Shown here: one piece after another, positions 11,375 to 24,979 of the stretch
Position numbering within the stretch: the first letter of the stretch is position 1
Layout: each line of letters begins with the position of its first letter
Source: an uncultured Frankiales bacterium
GTDB taxonomy: Bacteria; Actinomycetota; Actinomycetes; Mycobacteriales; SCTD01
Length of the DNA stretch: 29,299 nucleotides
Assembly (NCBI GenBank): GCA_946479905.1
Contig: CAMLIA010000028.1
Span: 1 to 29,299, forward strand
Reading direction: 5' to 3'
Made by a program: the position numbers and the translations under genes
The notes under the pieces: generated by a model
Databases searched by the model: none
What the model was told of the DNA's origin: nothing
The model's input: only the letters and a program-made list of their open reading frames with translations

Positions 11375-11940
11375 CCGCTCCCGCCCGCGTCATGCCGCTG
11401 CGCTCGCCGCTGCCCAAGGAGGCGCCGCGTCGCACCTCCCCGCTGCGTCTGGTGCCGCCGCGCCGCTCGTCGGCCGCGAAGGCGCCCTTCGTCGTCGTGC
11501 TCGTCGTGCTGCTCGCCGGCGGCCTGCTCGGCCTGCTGCTGCTCAACACCCTCGTGGCCCAGCAGAGCTTCTCCCTGCACGACCTCAGCACCCAGGACCG
11601 CGCCCTGACGCAGCAGGAGCAGGACCTGTCCCAGCAGGTGCGCGACCTCGAGGCGCCGGCGTCGCTCGCCGCCCGGGCCGCGGCCCTGCACATGGTGCCC
11701 AGCGGCGCCCCCGCCTTCCTCCGGCTGTCCGACGGCAAGGTGCTCGGCACGCCGCAACCGGGCGTCGCCCCCGTGGCACCCGCGGCCTCCACCACCTGGA
11801 CCGCGCCGCGGCAGCCGACGACCCCGACGGTCCCGGCGAAGAAGACCAGCAGGACCGGCACGACCAGCAAGACCAGCAAGAACGCGAGCAGCAAGGCGAC
11901 CACGACGACACCGACCAGGCCCGCGGGAGCGCACCGGTGA
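11371..11940 (+). CDS. ftsL: FtsL-like cell division protein
   Basis: A 189-residue bitopic membrane protein. A basic N-terminal tail (1-38) precedes one helix (about 39-62), then a short heptad-like region rich in Gln, Leu and Asp (66-95, including [18 protein letters not shown]), typical of FtsL/DivIC. The C-terminal third is low complexity, rich in Pro, Thr, Ser and Lys, longer than in most FtsL proteins. Sequence conservation of FtsL is poor, so the call rests on topology and its place between rsmH and ftsI. It starts with ATGA over the rsmH stop and ends with GTGA over the ftsI start. Expected role: with DivIC and FtsQ it activates FtsWI at the septum. Confidence 0.85.
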
Positions 11941-13874
11941 CCCCTCCTCCGCCGTCCCGTCCCTCCTCCCGCCCGTCCTCCCGGCCCGCCGCCCGCTCCG
12001 GTGCGCGCCCGGCGCCGGCCCGGCAGCGCCCCGCCGCCCGGCAGCCCGCACGGCAACCCGCACGAGCAACCGCCCGCAAGCCCCCGCCGCGTCGGCCCGC
12101 GGCGCACCGGCGAGGCCGTCCCCTCGGCCGGCCCGGCGTGCGACTGCGCAGCGGCCTCGTCATCCTCGGCGCCGTCGTCCTCATGCTCGCGGGCCGGCTC
12201 GTCCAGCTGCAGGGGCTGCAGCCGTCCGCCTACGCCGACCACGGCGTGCAGCACACCCGGGAGATCACCGTGCCCGCGCTGCGCGGGGCGGTGCTCGACC
12301 GCAACGGCAACACCCTGGCGGTGTCGGTCCAGGCCAAGAACGTCTTCGCCAACCCGCGGATGATCGCCGCGGCGACCTGCCAGCCGGGCGCCACCGCGCC
12401 GTGCGACCCCAGGTCGATCGCGGCCGCCCTCGCACCGCTGCTCGGCCTCGACGCGGCCGCGGTGCAGGCCAAGCTGGAGCTCGACAAGGCCTTCGTCTAC
12501 CTGAAGAAGAGCATCGTCGACGCCGCGGTCTGGAAGCGCATCAACGACCTCAAGCTGCTCGGCATCGGCGAGGAGCCGACCACCGTGCGCGTCCACCCGG
12601 GCCACGGCCTCGCCGCCGGGGTGCTCGGGTACACCTACGCCGACGGCACCGGCGCGGCCGGCATCGAGAAGGCCTACCAGGACGTGCTGGCCGGGACCCC
12701 CGGCCGGACGGTCGCGCGGATGGACGCGCTCGGCCGGGTCATCCCGACCGGCAACGACAGCCACGTCGACCCCGTCCCCGGCAAGGACGTGCAGCTCACC
12801 ATCGACGAGGACCTGGAGTGGTACGCCCAGGACCTGCTCGCCCGGCAGGTGCAGGCGACCGAGGCCCGCAACGGCACGATCGTCGTGATGGACGTCCGCA
12901 CCGGGGAGCTGCTGGCCTTCGCGTCCGCACCCAGCTACGACCCCGACCACCACTCAGGGGACTCCGGCAGCCTGCGGGGCATCTCCGAGGTCTACGAGCC
13001 GGGCTCGGTGAACAAGGTCATCACGGCCGCGGCCGCGCTGCAGCGGGGCATCGTCACCCCGACCACCGTCATCGACGTGCCGCCGACGTACCGGGTCAGC
13101 AACAAGGTGCTCCACGACGCCGAGCGGCACGGCGACGAGCACCTCACCTTCACCGGCGTGCTGGCGAAGTCCAGCAACATCGGCACGGTGAAGGTCGCCC
13201 AGCAAGTCGGACCGCAGGGCCTCTACGACACGATGAAGGCCTTCGGGTTCGGGGCCCGCTCCGGCATCGGGCTGCCCGCCGACAGCAAGGGCCTGCTGCC
13301 GCGCCCGGAGCACTGGTCGGGCACGTCGATCGCCAACATCCCGATCGGCCAGGGCGTCTCGACGACCGTGCTGCAGGTCGCCTCCGTCTACGCCACCATC
13401 GCCAACAACGGCGTCCGGGTGCAGCCCACCATCGTCAAGGCGGAGCGGGACGCGACCGGTCACACCGTGCCGGCCCACGCGCCCCAGCGCCGCCGGGTGA
13501 TCTCGGCCGACGTCGCCACGACCATCCGGCAGATGCTCGAGTCCGCGGTCTCCGAGCAGGGGACCGCACCGCTGGCAGCCGTCCCCGGCTACCGGGTGTC
13601 CGGCAAGACCGGCACCGCCCAGCGCGTGGCCACCGACGGGCCCCGCAAGGGCCACTACGACGGCAGCTACACCTCCTCCTTCGTCGGCATGGCACCGGCA
13701 GACGCCCCACGGTTCGTCGTGGCCGTCGTCCTCCAGGGCACCGGCAAGAAGGGCTACTTCGGCGGCCAGGTGTGCGCACCGCTGTTCAGCAAGGTGATGG
13801 GCTTCGCCCTGCGGTCCTTCGACGTCCCTCCCACGGGCACCACGCCGCCGCGGTTCCAGCTCGTCGCGCCGTGA
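11937..13874 (+). CDS. ftsI: Penicillin-binding protein FtsI (PBP2b/PBP3, septal transpeptidase)
   Basis: A 645-residue class B PBP that cross-links septal peptidoglycan. The first 68 residues form a cytoplasmic tail made almost only of Pro, Arg, Ala and Ser with SSRPSSRP and RQPARQPAR repeats. One helix follows at about 70-90, then the dimerisation domain (from TVPALRGAVLDRNGNTLA) and the transpeptidase domain with SVNK (Ser357 nucleophile, Lys360), SSN (412-414) and KTG (557-559). No PASTA domain is seen at the C-terminus. A Cys pair, CQPGATAPC, lies in the extracellular part and could form a disulfide. The GTG overlaps the ftsL stop (GTGA). Partner is FtsW. Confidence 0.96.
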   Translation: MTPPPPSRPSSRPSSRPAARSGARPAPARQRPAARQPARQPARATARKPPPRRPAAHRRGRPLGRPGVRLRSGLVILGAVVLMLAGRLVQLQGLQPSAYADHGVQHTREITVPALRGAVLDRNGNTLAVSVQAKNVFANPRMIAAATCQPGATAPCDPRSIAAALAPLLGLDAAAVQAKLELDKAFVYLKKSIVDAAVWKRINDLKLLGIGEEPTTVRVHPGHGLAAGVLGYTYADGTGAAGIEKAYQDVLAGTPGRTVARMDALGRVIPTGNDSHVDPVPGKDVQLTIDEDLEWYAQDLLARQVQATEARNGTIVVMDVRTGELLAFASAPSYDPDHHSGDSGSLRGISEVYEPGSVNKVITAAAALQRGIVTPTTVIDVPPTYRVSNKVLHDAERHGDEHLTFTGVLAKSSNIGTVKVAQQVGPQGLYDTMKAFGFGARSGIGLPADSKGLLPRPEHWSGTSIANIPIGQGVSTTVLQVASVYATIANNGVRVQPTIVKAERDATGHTVPAHAPQRRRVISADVATTIRQMLESAVSEQGTAPLAAVPGYRVSGKTGTAQRVATDGPRKGHYDGSYTSSFVGMAPADAPRFVVAVVLQGTGKKGYFGGQVCAPLFSKVMGFALRSFDVPPTGTTPPRFQLVAP

Positions 13875-13910: not shown

Positions 13911-15377
13911 GTGCTCCGCCCGGCCCACCCCTCGCCGCGCCCCCTCACCGAGCTGCTCGGCGAGGTGGCCGGTCTGACCGTCGCGGTCGACGGTCCGGGC
14001 GTCTCGGGCGTCGCCGTGACCGGCTGCACCCACGACTCCCGCGCGGTGCAGCCCGGGGACCTCTACGCCGCGCTGCCCGGTGCGCACGTGCACGGGGCGG
14101 AGTTCGCGGCGCAGGCCGTGCAGGCGGGCGCGGTGGCGGTCCTGACCGACCCTGCCGGCGCGGCCCGCGCGCACGACGTGCCGGTGCTCGTGGCCGACGC
14201 CCCCAGGGCGGTCCTGGGGGACGTGGCGTCGTGGGTGCACGGCCACCCCTCGCAGGCGCTGACGGTGCTCGGTGTCACGGGCACCAACGGCAAGACGACG
14301 ACGGCCTTCCTGCTCGAGGCGGGGCTGCGTGCCGCCGGGCACCGCACCGGGCTGCTGGGCACGGTGGTCACCCGCATCGGCGACGAGGCCGTCCCGTCCA
14401 CCCGCACCACGCCGGAGGCCACCGACCTGCACGCGCTGTTCGCCGCGATGGTCGAGCAGCAGGTGACGGCCGTCGCCATGGAGGTCAGCTCCCACGCGCT
14501 GGCCTTCGGTCGCGTGGACGGCATCCGGTTCGACGTGGCCGCCTTCACCAACCTCTCCCAGGACCACCTCGACTTCCACGGCGACATGGAGGACTACTTC
14601 AGGGCCAAGGCGTCGCTGTTCACGCCCGGCCGCTGCGCGCAGGGCGTCGTCAACGCCGACGACCGCTACGGCCGGCGGCTGCTCGCCGAGGCGCCGGTGC
14701 CGGTGGTGTCGTTCGGCGCGGACGCGGACTGGGTGGTCCGCGACGTCGACCTCCGCGGCGACGGCTCGACGTTCCGGGTCGGCGACGCGACCGCCTCGGT
14801 CCGGCTGCCCGGCCTGTTCAACGTCAGCAACGCCGCCGCGGCGATCGTGACGCTGGTGCAGGCCGGCGTCCCGGTGGCGGCCGCGGTGTCCGGGGTGGCC
14901 GCCCTGCCCGGCGTACCCGGCAGGATGGAGCGGGTCGACGAGGGCCAGCCGTTCGCTGCGCTCGTGGACTACGCCCACACGCCGGAGGCCGTCACCACGC
15001 TGCTCCGCTCGGTGCGGGACGTGACCCCCGGCCGGGTCATCGTCGTGCTCGGCTGCGGCGGCGACCGGGACAGGGGGAAGCGACCGCTCATGGGCCGGGC
15101 CGCGGTCGAGGGCGCCGACGTCGCGATCCTCACGAGCGACAACCCGCGCAGCGAGGACCCCCTCGCCATCCTCGCGGAGATGGGTCAGCCCGACACGCCC
15201 CAGGAGGTGGACCGCGGCAAGGCCATCGCGCTGGCCGTGTCGCTGGCGCAGCCGGGGGACACCGTCGTGGTGGCCGGCAAGGGGCACGAGAGCGGCCAGG
15301 AGGCGGGCGGGTCGGTCACGCCGTTCGACGACCGCGAGGTCCTGCGCGACGCCCTGCGCGAGGTGCTCGCCTCGTGA
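13911..15377 (+). CDS. murE: UDP-N-acetylmuramoyl-L-alanyl-D-glutamate--2,6-diaminopimelate ligase
   Basis: A 488-residue Mur ligase that adds the third amino acid of the stem peptide in the cytoplasm. The ATP loop is [13 protein letters not shown] (123-131 core), the lysine expected to be carbamylated lies in YFRAKASLF (Lys232), and the specificity motif is DNPR in SDNPRSEDP (409-412). DNPR marks meso-diaminopimelate as substrate, whereas lysine-adding enzymes differ there. The C-terminal VVAGKGHESGQE is also typical. The GTG at 13911 was taken since no better start precedes the conserved N-terminal domain. Its stop forms GTGA with a short frame that occupies the place where murF is expected. 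Confidence 0.96.
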   Translation: MLRPAHPSPRPLTELLGEVAGLTVAVDGPGVSGVAVTGCTHDSRAVQPGDLYAALPGAHVHGAEFAAQAVQAGAVAVLTDPAGAARAHDVPVLVADAPRAVLGDVASWVHGHPSQALTVLGVTGTNGKTTTAFLLEAGLRAAGHRTGLLGTVVTRIGDEAVPSTRTTPEATDLHALFAAMVEQQVTAVAMEVSSHALAFGRVDGIRFDVAAFTNLSQDHLDFHGDMEDYFRAKASLFTPGRCAQGVVNADDRYGRRLLAEAPVPVVSFGADADWVVRDVDLRGDGSTFRVGDATASVRLPGLFNVSNAAAAIVTLVQAGVPVAAAVSGVAALPGVPGRMERVDEGQPFAALVDYAHTPEAVTTLLRSVRDVTPGRVIVVLGCGGDRDRGKRPLMGRAAVEGADVAILTSDNPRSEDPLAILAEMGQPDTPQEVDRGKAIALAVSLAQPGDTVVVAGKGHESGQEAGGSVTPFDDREVLRDALREVLAS

Positions 15378-15511
15378 CAGCGACCAGCCGGCCGCGACAC
15401 GTCGCGGCCGAACAGCGCGCCCTCACGCGCTCGGGAGCCCAGGTTCGGGACCATGACGTCGTGACCCCGCCCGGAGTGCCCGCTGCCGCACCGTCGCGGG
15501 TCTGCGCGTGA
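15374..15511 (+). other. 45-codon frame coupled to murE and mraY, in the expected murF position
   Basis: The GTG at 15374 overlaps the murE stop as GTGA, and the TGA at 15509-15511 overlaps the mraY GTG in the same way, so the frame links both neighbours exactly as a full gene would. The 45-residue product is basic and Ala/Arg/Pro-rich, with no Mur ligase motif and no membrane segment. About 80 percent of its third codon positions are G or C, clearly lower than in the flanking genes. It may be a remnant of murF after an in-frame internal deletion, a coupling minigene, or a chance frame. No Shine-Dalgarno sequence is seen. Confidence 0.35.
15389..15410 (+). repeat. Perfect inverted repeat between murE and mraY
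   Basis: CGGCCGCGAC (15389-15398) is the exact reverse complement of GTCGCGGCCG (15401-15410). As RNA it folds into a nine-pair stem with a CACG loop just after the murE stop. No T-run follows. It could pause or attenuate transcription, stabilise the murE 3' end, or mark a recombination scar where murF was lost. Confidence 0.5.
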
Positions 15512-16593
15512 TCTCCGTCCTGACCGCCGCCATCACGGCGCTGGTCCTCAGCCTCATCGGCACGCCCGCGGTCGTGCGCTTCTTCCGGCGGCAGGGCTAC
15601 GGGCAGGAGATCCGCGAGGACGGCCCCGCCAGCCACGCGACCAAGCGCGGGACGCCGACGATGGGCGGCACCGTCATCCTGCTCGCGACCTTCACGGGGT
15701 ACGTCGTGGCGCACCTCATCGCGCTGCGCAACCCGGGGCGGGGGCCGACCGCCAGCGGGCTGCTCGTGCTGGGCCTGATGGGGACGCTCGGCCTCGTGGG
15801 CTTCCTCGACGACTTCATCAAGATCCGCAAGCAGCGCTCGCTGGGTCTGACCGCGATCGCGAAGTTCGGCGGCCAGCTGATCAGCGGGGTCGGGTTCGCC
15901 CTGCTCTGCATGCAGTTCAAGAACCGGACGACGCACCTCACGCCGGCGTCCACGCACCTGTCGTTCGTCCGTGACTACACGTCCTGGTCGCTGGGGGCGG
16001 TCGGGTTCGTGGTGTTCGCCTACCTCATCATCACGGCCACGTCCAACGCCGTGAACCTCACCGACGGCCTCGACGGGCTCGCGTCCGGCTCGATGGTCAT
16101 GGTGCTGGCGTCGTACGTCATCATCGCGTTCTGGGAGTTCGGCAACGCCTGCACGACGAAGCTGACACCGGGGTGCTACCAGGCGCGCGACCCGCTGGAC
16201 CTCGCGCTCGTCGCGGCGGCGGCGATGGGCGCCTGCTTCGGGTTCCTGTGGTGGAACGCCTCACCCGCCAAGATCTTCATGGGGGACACCGGGTCGCTGT
16301 CGCTCGGCGGCCTGCTCGCCGGGCTGGCCATCACGACGCGCACCGAGCTGCTGCTCGTCGTGATCGGTGGCCTGTTCGTCATCGAGACGCTGTCGGTGGT
16401 GATCCAGGTCGGCTTCTTCAAGCTGACGAGGAAGCGGGTGTTCAACATGGCGCCCATCCACCACCACTTCGAGCTGGCCGGCTGGGTCGAGAACACCGTG
16501 ATCGTGCGGTTCTGGATCATCTGCGGGCTGGCCGTCGCGTTCGGCCTGGGCCTGTTCTACGCCGAGTTCCTCTCGAACGGGCCGCTCGGCTGA
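15508..16593 (+). CDS. mraY: Phospho-N-acetylmuramoyl-pentapeptide-transferase
   Basis: A 361-residue polytopic membrane enzyme with about ten hydrophobic helices, which transfers phospho-MurNAc-pentapeptide to undecaprenyl phosphate to make lipid I. Diagnostic motifs are KRGTPTMGG (46-54), GFLDDFIKI (Asp101, Asp102), [27 protein letters not shown] and the cytoplasmic MAPIHHHFE loop. The GTG at 15508 gives the usual N-terminus MISVLTAAI. Its stop overlaps the murD start as TGATG. Its substrate is the product of MurF, whose gene is not next to it here. Confidence 0.96.
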
Positions 16594-22384: not shown

Positions 22385-22652
22385 GCCGCCTGCGGTGCTT
22401 GATCAGCGTCAGGCCGATGGCGCCGGAGCAGACCGACAGCGTGCCCAGCACGATCATCCAGGGGCGGCCCACGGGGCTCCCGCTGTAGCGGTCGTGCACG
22501 CACGTGGTCGCCGTCTTCGCGGGGACGCACTGCACCCTGTCGTGGTTGAGGGTCCGAGGGCCCTCGACGACCCGCATGCCGACGAGCACGACGGTCGTGG
22601 CGATGACGAGCGCACAGGCCACGATCCCCAGCGTCGTCAGCCGTCTCTCCAC
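22371..22652 (-). CDS. Small two-helix membrane protein of unknown function
   Basis: A 93-residue protein with hydrophobic helices at about residues 8-27 and 65-83. The loop between them holds two cysteines, in VQCVPAKTATTCVHD, that could form a disulfide if the loop is outside. The C-terminus is basic (KHRRRL), which favours both ends being cytoplasmic. Third codon positions are nearly all G or C, which supports real coding. The GTG start at 22652 has no clear Shine-Dalgarno sequence. The stop lies 14 bases inside the end of ftsQ, so the two genes converge. It lies 25 bases after the M20 gene and may be cotranscribed with it. No family was recognised. Confidence 0.65.
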   Translation of the reverse strand: MERRLTTLGIVACALVIATTVVLVGMRVVEGPRTLNHDRVQCVPAKTATTCVHDRYSGSPVGRPWMIVLGTLSVCSGAIGLTLIKHRRRLSAG

Positions 22653-22677
22653 GCGAGCAGCCTAAGTGGGGCTCCGG

Positions 22678-23943
22678 TCAGCAGGTGCCGCACACCTCGG
22701 CCGCCAGCAGGACCAGTGCCTGGGTGACCTGGACGAGCTCGTCGACAGGCACCGACTCGTCGGGGGCGTGCGCCTGCCGGACGTCGCCAGGTCCGTAGTG
22801 GACGGTCGGGATCCCCGCCGCCGTCAGCAGCCGCAGGTCGGAGCCGTAGGGCGCGCCGTGCACCGGGGCCTCGCGGCCGGTGACCGTCCGGTGCACCTGG
22901 CAGACCTGGTCCAGCAGCGGGTCGCCGGCGGGCAGCATCCCCGGCGCGAACTGGCCGCCGTACCACTGCACCTCGACCGGGTGGCCGAGCGCGGCCAGGC
23001 ACTGCTCGAACTCGGCGCGGGCGTGCTCGACGGACTCCTCGAGGGCGACACCCAGCCGACCCTCGGCGACCAGCAGGTCCGGCACGCTCGACGGCCAGTC
23101 ACCTGCCCGCAGGGTGCCGACCGAGAGCGGGTACGGGATGGGCCGGTGCGCCATCAGCGGGTGCGTGCGCGCGTTGCGGCGGGCCTCCAGGTCGCGAAGC
23201 GCCTGGTGGACCCGCACGTAGACGTCGAGCACGTCGACGCCCTCGTCGCGGACGCTGGCGTGCGCAGAGGTGCCGCGGATGACGAGCCGGAACGTCAGGG
23301 CGCCCGCGCACGCCGGCACCACGGCCAGCGACGTGGGCTCGCACACGACGGCGACGTCACCCCCGTGCCCCCGGCGCAGCGTCGCGAAGGTGCCCAGCCC
23401 GCCGTCCTCCTCCCCGACGACGCTCTGCACCGTCAGCCGCCCCCGCAGCCGCACCCCTGCCTCCGCGAGCACGGTCGCCGCCATCACCTGGCAGGCCAGG
23501 CCGCCCTTCATGTCGCACGCGCCGCGGCCGACCACCGAGCCGGCGTGCAGCGCGCCGGACCACGGGTCCACCGACCAGCTGCTGCGGTCGCCCACGGGCA
23601 CCACGTCGATGTGGCCGTTGAGCACGAGCGCCGGCCCCTCGCCCGACCCCATCGACCCGACCAGGCCCCAGGCGTCGACGCGGGGGGCCTCCATGCCCGG
23701 GAACCCTGCTGCGGAGGTCGTGGTCGGCAGGTCGATCTCCCACAGGTCCGTGTCGAGGCCGGCCGACGCGAGGCGGGCGGCGAGCACCTGCTGCGCCTCA
23801 CCCTCGGCCGCCGAGCCCGTGACGGAGGGGATGCGGACCAGGTCCTGGAGCAGCGCCGTGAGCCGGTCCGCGGAGACGGCGTCGAGCGCCTCGGTGAGGG
23901 CACGACCATGGGCTGCGGCGCGTTGTCTCGTGTGCACGGTCAC
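22678..23943 (-). CDS. M20 family metallopeptidase (ArgE/DapE/ACY1-type deacylase)
   Basis: A 421-residue zinc amidohydrolase. Metal ligands and catalytic residues are visible: LNGHIDVVP (His111, Asp113), GRGACDMKGG (Asp144 bridging), GEEDGG (Glu178 catalytic base, Glu179), CEPTS (Glu202) and VHYGPGD near the C-terminus (last His). The region between about 210 and 320 is the dimerisation lid. Such enzymes cleave N-acyl groups or dipeptides; acetylornithine, succinyl-diaminopimelate and acyl-amino acids are all possible substrates, and the protein is longer than typical DapE. The GTG at 23943 is the first sensible start before the conserved N-terminal helix, but no Shine-Dalgarno sequence supports it. 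It is divergent from the GGDEF gene across 67 bases. Confidence 0.88.
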   Translation of the reverse strand: MTVHTRQRAAAHGRALTEALDAVSADRLTALLQDLVRIPSVTGSAAEGEAQQVLAARLASAGLDTDLWEIDLPTTTSAAGFPGMEAPRVDAWGLVGSMGSGEGPALVLNGHIDVVPVGDRSSWSVDPWSGALHAGSVVGRGACDMKGGLACQVMAATVLAEAGVRLRGRLTVQSVVGEEDGGLGTFATLRRGHGGDVAVVCEPTSLAVVPACAGALTFRLVIRGTSAHASVRDEGVDVLDVYVRVHQALRDLEARRNARTHPLMAHRPIPYPLSVGTLRAGDWPSSVPDLLVAEGRLGVALEESVEHARAEFEQCLAALGHPVEVQWYGGQFAPGMLPAGDPLLDQVCQVHRTVTGREAPVHGAPYGSDLRLLTAAGIPTVHYGPGDVRQAHAPDESVPVDELVQVTQALVLLAAEVCGTC

Positions 23944-24010
23944 AGAGTGGCTGAATGGAGCCCGGCGTGAAGGCAGAACGGCAGGGAAGGGGGGCCGAGA
24001 GGAGGTCCGC

Positions 24011-24979
24011 GTGAGCACCCAGTCAGATGCGAGGGCAGAGCGTGCCCGTCGCACCATGCGCGTCCTGGCCACCAGTGCCGACGTGTTCGAGACGTTCTTC
24101 GACCACGCGCGCATCGGGCTCGCCCTGACCGACCTCTCCGGCTGCTACGTGCGGGTCAACGAGACCTATGCCGGCCTGCTCGGCCGGCACCCGGAGGACC
24201 TGGTCGGTGTCTCGTTGACCGAGGTGCTGCACCCTGACGACCGCGAGACGGAGCTCGCCCGGGTCCACGAGCTGCTGACGGGGCGGCAGTCCAGCCTCAG
24301 CGCGGAGGAGCGGTACGTCGGTCCCGACGGTCAGGTCCTCTGGGTGCTGCACGGCGTGTCGGTCGTGCGCGACGAGCAGGGGACACCTGCGTGGTTCGCC
24401 GTGAGCGCGCAGGACATCACCGAGCGCCGCAAGGTCGAGTCCGACCTGCGGGAGCTGACGGCGACCCTGACCGAGCGCGCCGTCCGGGACCCGCTCACCG
24501 GCCTGGCGAACCGCACGCTGCTCCAGGAACGGCTGCGGTCGGTGCTGGCCCGCGACGCGCGCACGGGGGACAGCACGGCCGTGCTCTTCCTCGACCTCGA
24601 CGGCTTCAAGGCGGTCAACGACAAGTACGGCCACACGGTCGGCGACGAGGTGCTCGTGACCGTCGCGAAGCGGCTCGCCGCCGCGGTGCGGCCCTCCGAC
24701 ACCGTCGCGCGGATCGGGGGAGACGAGTTCGTCGTCCTCGTCGAGGGCACCGCACCGGGCGACCTCGACACGGTCGTGGGACGACTCCGGGAGGCCGTCT
24801 GCCAGCCGCTCCCAACCCTCGACCTCGAGGTGGGGGTGAGCATCGGTGTCGCGACCTCGACACGCGGCGAGGCGGAGCCGCGCACGCTCCTGAACGCGGC
24901 CGACAAGGCCATGTACACGGTCAAGCGGCAGGCCAAGGACGGCGAGAAGTCCGTCACACGCCACGCGCACGACGGTTGA
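24011..24979 (+). CDS. PAS-GGDEF diguanylate cyclase
   Basis: A 322-residue soluble protein with no membrane helix. A PAS sensor domain spans about residues 24-139 (NETYAGLLGRHPEDLVG, LHPDDRE, then the PAC end AQDITERRKVE). A short linker helix leads to the GGDEF domain (155-310), starting DPLTGLANR, with FLDLDGFKAVNDKYGH (metal and GTP binding) and an intact GGDEF (236-240). RPSD at 227-230, five residues ahead of GGDEF, is the I-site for feedback inhibition by c-di-GMP. It should therefore make c-di-GMP from two GTP. No EAL domain is present. The GTG at 24011 follows GAGGAGG with good spacing. Its place between ftsQ and ftsZ is unusual. Confidence 0.93.
   Translation: MSTQSDARAERARRTMRVLATSADVFETFFDHARIGLALTDLSGCYVRVNETYAGLLGRHPEDLVGVSLTEVLHPDDRETELARVHELLTGRQSSLSAEERYVGPDGQVLWVLHGVSVVRDEQGTPAWFAVSAQDITERRKVESDLRELTATLTERAVRDPLTGLANRTLLQERLRSVLARDARTGDSTAVLFLDLDGFKAVNDKYGHTVGDEVLVTVAKRLAAAVRPSDTVARIGGDEFVVLVEGTAPGDLDTVVGRLREAVCQPLPTLDLEVGVSIGVATSTRGEAEPRTLLNAADKAMYTVKRQAKDGEKSVTRHAHDG

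Follow-up and report, generated by a model that had tools for sequence, protein, structure and literature searches.

The 45-codon reading frame between murE and mraY of the uncultured Frankiales bacterium studied here is, very probably, the decayed tail of a murF gene. In this reading, a divergent MurF-like ligase (called altMurF in the following) took over together with a divergent Ddl-type ligase (Ddl2), after which murF was cut down to its C-terminal domain and then to the 45 codons. The window, i.e., the whole stretch of 29,299 nucleotides that was analysed, contains an actinobacterial dcw cluster with mraZ, mraW, a penicillin-binding protein gene, murE, mraY, murD, ftsW, murG, murC, ftsQ, and ftsZ. 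The features at the murE-mraY junction are listed below, where "stump" denotes a longer frame found at the same place in five related genomes (G001, G002, G003, G005, and G006).

13911..15377, forward strand: murE, encoding MurE of 488 amino acids (profile NF001124, 576.8 bits, cut-off 476); the stop codon shares bases with the remnant's start.
15374..15511, forward strand: 45-codon frame, very probably the deleted and decayed murF tail; aligns to the stump tails of G001, G002, G003, G005, and G006, with dN/dS of 0.61-0.94.
15393..15508, forward strand: part of the remnant whose DNA can be aligned to the relatives' stump tails, at 70-73% identity for G001, G002, and G006, and 64% for G005 (identities cover these four genomes, G003 being excluded).
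15508..16593, forward strand: mraY, encoding 361 amino acids (TIGR00445 score of 313.9 bits, which exceeds the cut-off); the GTG start codon shares bases with the remnant's stop.

Between the end of murE at 15377 and the start of mraY at 15508 lie 130 bases. The GTGA at the end of murE supplies the GTG start codon of the 45-codon frame, whose TGA stop in turn overlaps the GTG start of mraY. Profile scoring assigned the Mur ligases of the window's cluster to MurE, MurD, and MurC, and no MurF was found among them. The third-position GC content of the frame is 0.80, compared to 0.977 in murE and 0.986 in mraY; three of 1154 overlapping 45-codon stretches from murE, mraY, and murD are as low. The first-pass annotation had reported the missing murF, the short gap filled by a frame overlapping both neighbors, and the reduced third-position GC, all of which were borne out. 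Openness of the frame was ruled out as evidence, as 60% of its base-shuffled versions are open as well. We consider the frame a murF remnant because it is homologous to the stumps, not because it is open.

A genome scan with MurE yielded 61 loci. The nearest ones belong to the Frankiales MAGs RYN_161 (locus L001, genome G001) and RYN_109 (L002, G002), with MurE identities of 84% and 82%, respectively. By one measure, the murE-mraY gap spans 365 bases in L001, 347 in L002, and 134 in the window, while 18 other loci (L003-L009, L011-L020, and L056) have gaps of 1367-2136 bases, which leave room for murF. From a second measurement, only L078, L080, L081, and L082 were used, as many loci gave meaningless gaps there owing to reversed orientation, flanks that were too short, or a paralogous Mur ligase. 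The gap amounts to 353-365 bases in G003, G005, and G006; for G002 it was taken from L002. In the Ktedonobacteraceae MAG of L034, a distance of 375 was obtained by a partial mraY match. An M20 peptidase gene (22681-24114, reverse strand) is located between ftsQ and ftsZ in opposite orientation, and about 1.45 kb of its region (22387-23843) is present in L002 and missing from L001. Positions 11773-12116, toward the N-terminal end of the penicillin-binding protein region, do not align with L001 or L002, with surroundings of approximately 80% identity.

The junction is visible in five of the seven close relatives, since the contigs of G004 and G007 end in or beside murE and mraY. In all five, the gap consists of a single frame of 118-126 codons that overlaps the murE stop and the mraY start. 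These stumps match the end of the MurF profile weakly (G001 at 325-405 of 418, E 8e-4; G002 at 347-405, E 1e-3), and three of them match the Pfam Mur ligase C-terminal domain with E-values of 2e-4, 3e-5, and 3e-7, the third alone exceeding the Pfam cut-off. A direct alignment to canonical MurF from related genomes places them on its C-terminal domain. A structure model of the stump (pLDDT 94.1) finds MurF chains among its best PDB matches, at modest E-values (best 9.8e-4). A protein database search returned 183 stump matches; among the 120 listed, lengths range from 96 to 136 amino acids, so that the stump occurs as a stand-alone protein in many assemblies. The motif HAGAVLEGSWG.ESRH is invariant in all 35 stumps aligned out of these 120. 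Stump dN/dS is 0.21-0.37 (10 pairs, five relatives), near the range of 0.17-0.34 for murE (15 pairs, window included). Judged by sequence, the stump is the MurF C-terminal domain, evidently held under purifying selection in the relatives.

The window frame aligns to the stump tail, with approximately 75-80 codons missing after the start, and blastn alignments of the window with L001 and L002 break at 15349/15393. Its local alignment scores exceed those of all 2000 shuffles for each of the five stumps. The first-pass annotation had explained the junction by an internal murF deletion preserving both coupled ends. The relatives show exactly such ends, but at least two steps were needed rather than one. 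None of them carries the same short frame conserved beside an intact murF, and the deletion reading holds in outline.

Would the frame nevertheless be a functional small protein, or a spacer needed for murE-mraY coupling? In favor of this, the frame retains both overlaps just as the relatives do, selection acts on their longer stump, and some DNA patches are identical to those of relatives. Against this, dN/dS of the window frame versus the stumps is 0.61-0.94 (five pairs of only 43-45 codons, one of them assessed by pN/pS since dS saturates), and the HAGAVLEGSWG block, present in 35 of 35 aligned stumps, is gone. Neither a direct Pfam domain match (best E 0.13) nor a database homologue was found for the 45 amino acids. 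We regard a function of this kind as unlikely, though the frame may still act as a spacer alone. Within 15454-15475, twenty bases of the remnant (TTCGGGACCATGACGTCGTG) are identical in the window, G002, and G006, though the protein frame looks unconstrained. Another possibility is that reads of an intact murF or of a longer stump were collapsed at the junction during assembly or binning. The relatives are indeed draft MAGs, yet five of them also have no murF at this place, which makes an assembly deletion unlikely to be the whole story. Stump-length proteins are also numerous in the database (the 183 matches), and a collapse would not cause the divergence without clear constraint in the kept part of the frame. 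An artefact is thus highly improbable, and the frame is best described, from its alignment and substitution pattern, as the remnant of a further-deleted stump, apparently free of clear constraint.

In an MraY tree, G001 comes out as the sister of the window (96/92), which falls among the genomes bearing stumps (100/97 together with G002 and G006; 98/91 with G003, G005, and G007). Because it is nested among them, the window's lineage most likely once possessed a stump and then lost most of it. None of G001-G007 reveals a MurF above the cut-off of TIGR01143, the canonical MurF profile (288.6 bits), in contrast to 50 of the 61 genomes of the same search; in a sample of the phylum, canonical MurF was found in 257 of 296 genomes. 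Instead, altMurF is present in G001-G006. For G007, which belongs to the clade by MraY, neither altMurF nor any Ddl hit was found, and this draft is probably incomplete. The relatives are draft genomes of unstated completeness, and related genomes do not count as independent. Hits within E 1e-40 of the altMurF of G001 occur in three of 394 class members and ten of 249 order members (G001 included). Neither MraY (at E 0.001) nor MurF (at E 1e-10) gave a hit in G055, a relative of 8.7 Mb. The first-pass annotation had expected a working murF elsewhere or a non-homologous ligase. Six relatives do carry another MurF elsewhere, paired with its own Ddl, but this enzyme is homologous, though very divergent. 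From its position in the clade, the window organism's own genome presumably carries altMurF, too.

With 173-183 bits in G001-G006 and 158-206 bits overall, altMurF scores below the canonical cut-off of TIGR01143, and its profile match begins at 58-65 in G001-G006. MurF is nevertheless its best family match (179.2 bits) and best fold match, although the structural comparison says little about the N-terminal helices. It has the middle and C-terminal domains of a Mur ligase, and the motifs GS.GKT.TK, SFNN, AK.E, and DDT.N.NP are invariant over 28 rows. Where canonical MurF has its UDP-binding domain, altMurF has hydrophobic helices, with the conserved residues AQ.EHY and R96; the predicted structure likewise places only helices (2-159) ahead of the core, without an N-terminal UDP-binding domain. 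The protein is probably membrane-bound. Its C-terminus reads ENDLPDHYP or a close variant, as opposed to VKASRSAGLE in canonical MurF. Given the conserved motifs, altMurF would perform the MurF reaction.

The altMurF genes are located outside the dcw cluster, together with genes for an alpha/beta hydrolase and Ddl2, as in locus L138:

L138, 9056-9763, reverse strand: alpha/beta hydrolase beside altMurF.
L138, 6454-7557, reverse strand: Ddl2, in which Tyr (within LYLW or KYLW) takes the place of the Ser of canonical Ddl and Ddl1, as in 13 other Ddl2 rows.

In all 16 genomes examined that carry altMurF, the hydrolase gene adjoins it (for G005, on a second piece of contig), and Ddl2 is found within the cluster in 13 of the 16, being located elsewhere in G448-G450. 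Ddl2 contains both Ddl Pfam domains and gives full-length hits of 147-199 bits (158.3 in G001), below the canonical cut-off of 245.65 (TIGR01205). A canonical Ddl above this cut-off occurs in seven of seven relatives with canonical MurF versus none of the 16 altMurF genomes (24 genomes including G007). On this evidence, canonical MurF and canonical Ddl appear to have been lost together.

All 14 Ddl2 rows preserve Glu, Ser, Lys-Tyr, Arg, and Asn at their respective positions; the residue after NT.PG is Tyr in each of these rows, compared to Ser in 12 of 12 canonical Ddl and Ddl1 rows. We take these positions and the Ser after NT.PG to be catalytic or functional sites, and the exchange of Ser for Tyr may alter the acceptor. 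Presumably, this Tyr and the changed C-terminus of altMurF lie where the end of the dipeptide might bind, i.e., both enzymes may differ from their canonical relatives at the positions that bind it. Because of these two differences, a serious rival reading is that altMurF truly replaces MurF, but the dipeptide that it receives from Ddl2 and adds is not D-Ala-D-Ala. The retention of the remaining Ddl2 positions in every row speaks against it, and the presence of Tyr instead of His at the Lys-Tyr site speaks against D-lactate. We consider a different dipeptide somewhat unlikely; most likely, as far as sequence can tell, altMurF and Ddl2 make the D-Ala-D-Ala arm.

Genome G019 (INTERMEDIATE), from a separate lineage, carries both the altMurF set and a dcw MurF. 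On the MraY tree it is placed among the canonical-MurF genomes (nearest fork 86/71, group of seven 100/99), and it contains the hydrolase-altMurF-Ddl2 cluster and no canonical Ddl. Its dcw MurF is full-length and scores 259.7 bits, below the cut-off. FNN, AKGE, and DAYNANP are lost at positions common to six compared relatives, GKS stands at the GKT position, and HAGAVLEGSWG is kept. For the middle domain, dN/dS is 0.49-0.72 in comparisons with five partners and 0.32 with the sixth, G017, versus 0.24-0.58 among four intact genes, and the C-terminal domain 0.28-0.43 versus 0.18-0.32 among the intact ones, by which it also seems somewhat relaxed. The dN/dS contrast is moderate, and the motif losses are the stronger evidence. 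Since two altMurF lineages have kept the MurF C-terminal domain after loss of catalysis, a second, non-catalytic role of this domain is suggested; as a guess, it might be a binding surface for MurE, MraY, or MurG.

The same murF loss is found outside the window's clade. In L028, L030, L032, and L054, murE and mraY are 38-39 bases apart without a stump, and the corresponding genomes G447-G450 contain altMurF and no MurF above cut-off. G328 and G139 likewise show a distance of about 80 bases between murE and mraY. L032 and L054 are titled Acidimicrobiia, which is probably the class of G447. Among 198 genomes of this class, 99 have a MurF above cut-off, 88 weaker hits only, and 11 none at E 1e-40. 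Of the weaker hits, 51 of the 88 were listed; 48 of these begin at profile positions 55-71 and 47 end at 402-403. In none of the 13 genomes with two hits did a canonical MurF and an altMurF-type hit occur together. Ddl was compared between 25 of the 51 listed altMurF genomes and the 25 best-scoring canonical-MurF genomes: a canonical Ddl above cut-off was present in none of the former versus 20 of the latter. The other five gave no hit, which indicates that drafts lose genes. A single weaker Ddl hit (91-199 bits) occurs in every one of the 25 altMurF genomes and directly adjoins altMurF in 23 of them. Assembly size is 0.8-1.1 Mb, at unstated completeness, in eight genomes of this test.

These distributions bear on the idea that altMurF, which has no UDP-binding domain, is an accessory ligase of another pathway and that a further unrecognised enzyme makes the pentapeptide. 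An accessory role does not account well for the near mutual exclusion of altMurF and canonical MurF, for the joint absence of canonical Ddl, for MurF being the best family and fold match, or for the presence of altMurF in assemblies as small as 0.6-1.1 Mb within the class of G447. We give this idea little credence and retain altMurF as the replacement of MurF, an arrangement also found in many other Actinobacteria.

Canonical MurF (TIGR01143, UDP-MurNAc-tripeptide:D-Ala-D-Ala ligase) shares the middle and C-terminal domains and the P-loop, FNN, AKxE, and DDTxNxNP motifs with altMurF, but differs in its UDP-binding N-terminus, its C-terminus, its dcw location, and its score above cut-off. Similarly, canonical Ddl (TIGR01205) and Ddl2 have in common both Ddl Pfam domains and the main catalytic positions; canonical Ddl differs by its score above 245.65 and the Ser after NT.PG, and Ddl2 by being encoded with altMurF. 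In glycopeptide-producing actinomycetes, a second MurF, MurF2, is accompanied by a Ddl-type ligase of its own; it supplements the normal MurF and is not known to replace it. MurT, which with GatD forms lipid II isoglutaminyl synthase, is likewise a Mur ligase without the N-terminal UDP-binding domain. It lacks hydrophobic helices of the altMurF kind, and its profile NF052464 gives altMurF 19.1 bits (cut-off 800) versus 179.2 for murF; the neighbors found for altMurF are the hydrolase and Ddl2. MurT amidates D-Glu. It is described as having a short, flexible N-terminus and as acting on lipid II, where a UDP-binding domain would, according to the authors, likely clash with the membrane (PMC6113224). 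In the open-licence literature searched (PMC8871954 and PMC6113224 included), we found no account of a replacement of MurF, no murF loss in Acidimicrobiia, and no stand-alone MurF C-terminal domain.

Since hydrophobic helices and conserved residues (AQ.EHY, R96) replace the UDP domain, and given the precedent of MurT, altMurF may work on a lipid-linked tripeptide. We tentatively extend this to a fuller scheme, which is possible though rather doubtful as a whole: MraY would transfer the tripeptide, membrane-anchored altMurF would add the dipeptide of Ddl2 to the lipid-linked intermediate, and the freed C-terminal domain would hold a non-catalytic role in some lineages and be gone in others, such as the window's.

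For the history of the locus, we infer the following order of gain and loss. In the ancestor of the clade of Frankiales MAGs, altMurF, with its hydrolase and Ddl2, encoded elsewhere in the genome, would have taken over the D-Ala-D-Ala-adding step. Canonical MurF and canonical Ddl would then have been lost in the clade. The dcw murF would first have been reduced to its C-terminal domain, still under selection in close relatives, and in the window's lineage this domain would have shrunk by further deletion to the present 45 codons, with both overlaps to the neighboring genes staying in place.

The MurF and Ddl steps of wall synthesis are commonly regarded as universal and essential, and the two enzymes as drug targets. 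Here, a divergent pair apparently replaces both at once, in one actinobacterial clade as well as in another class, where this applies to at least 51 of the 198 genomes sampled. The series from intact MurF via a full-length MurF without catalytic motifs and a selected stump to the 45-codon remnant records how a core gene was lost, and gives a hint that the C-terminal domain serves another, non-catalytic purpose. The replacement has lost the domain that holds UDP, which leads to a testable prediction on the order of the pathway: if true, an altMurF acting at the membrane stage would reverse the textbook order of MurF and MraY.
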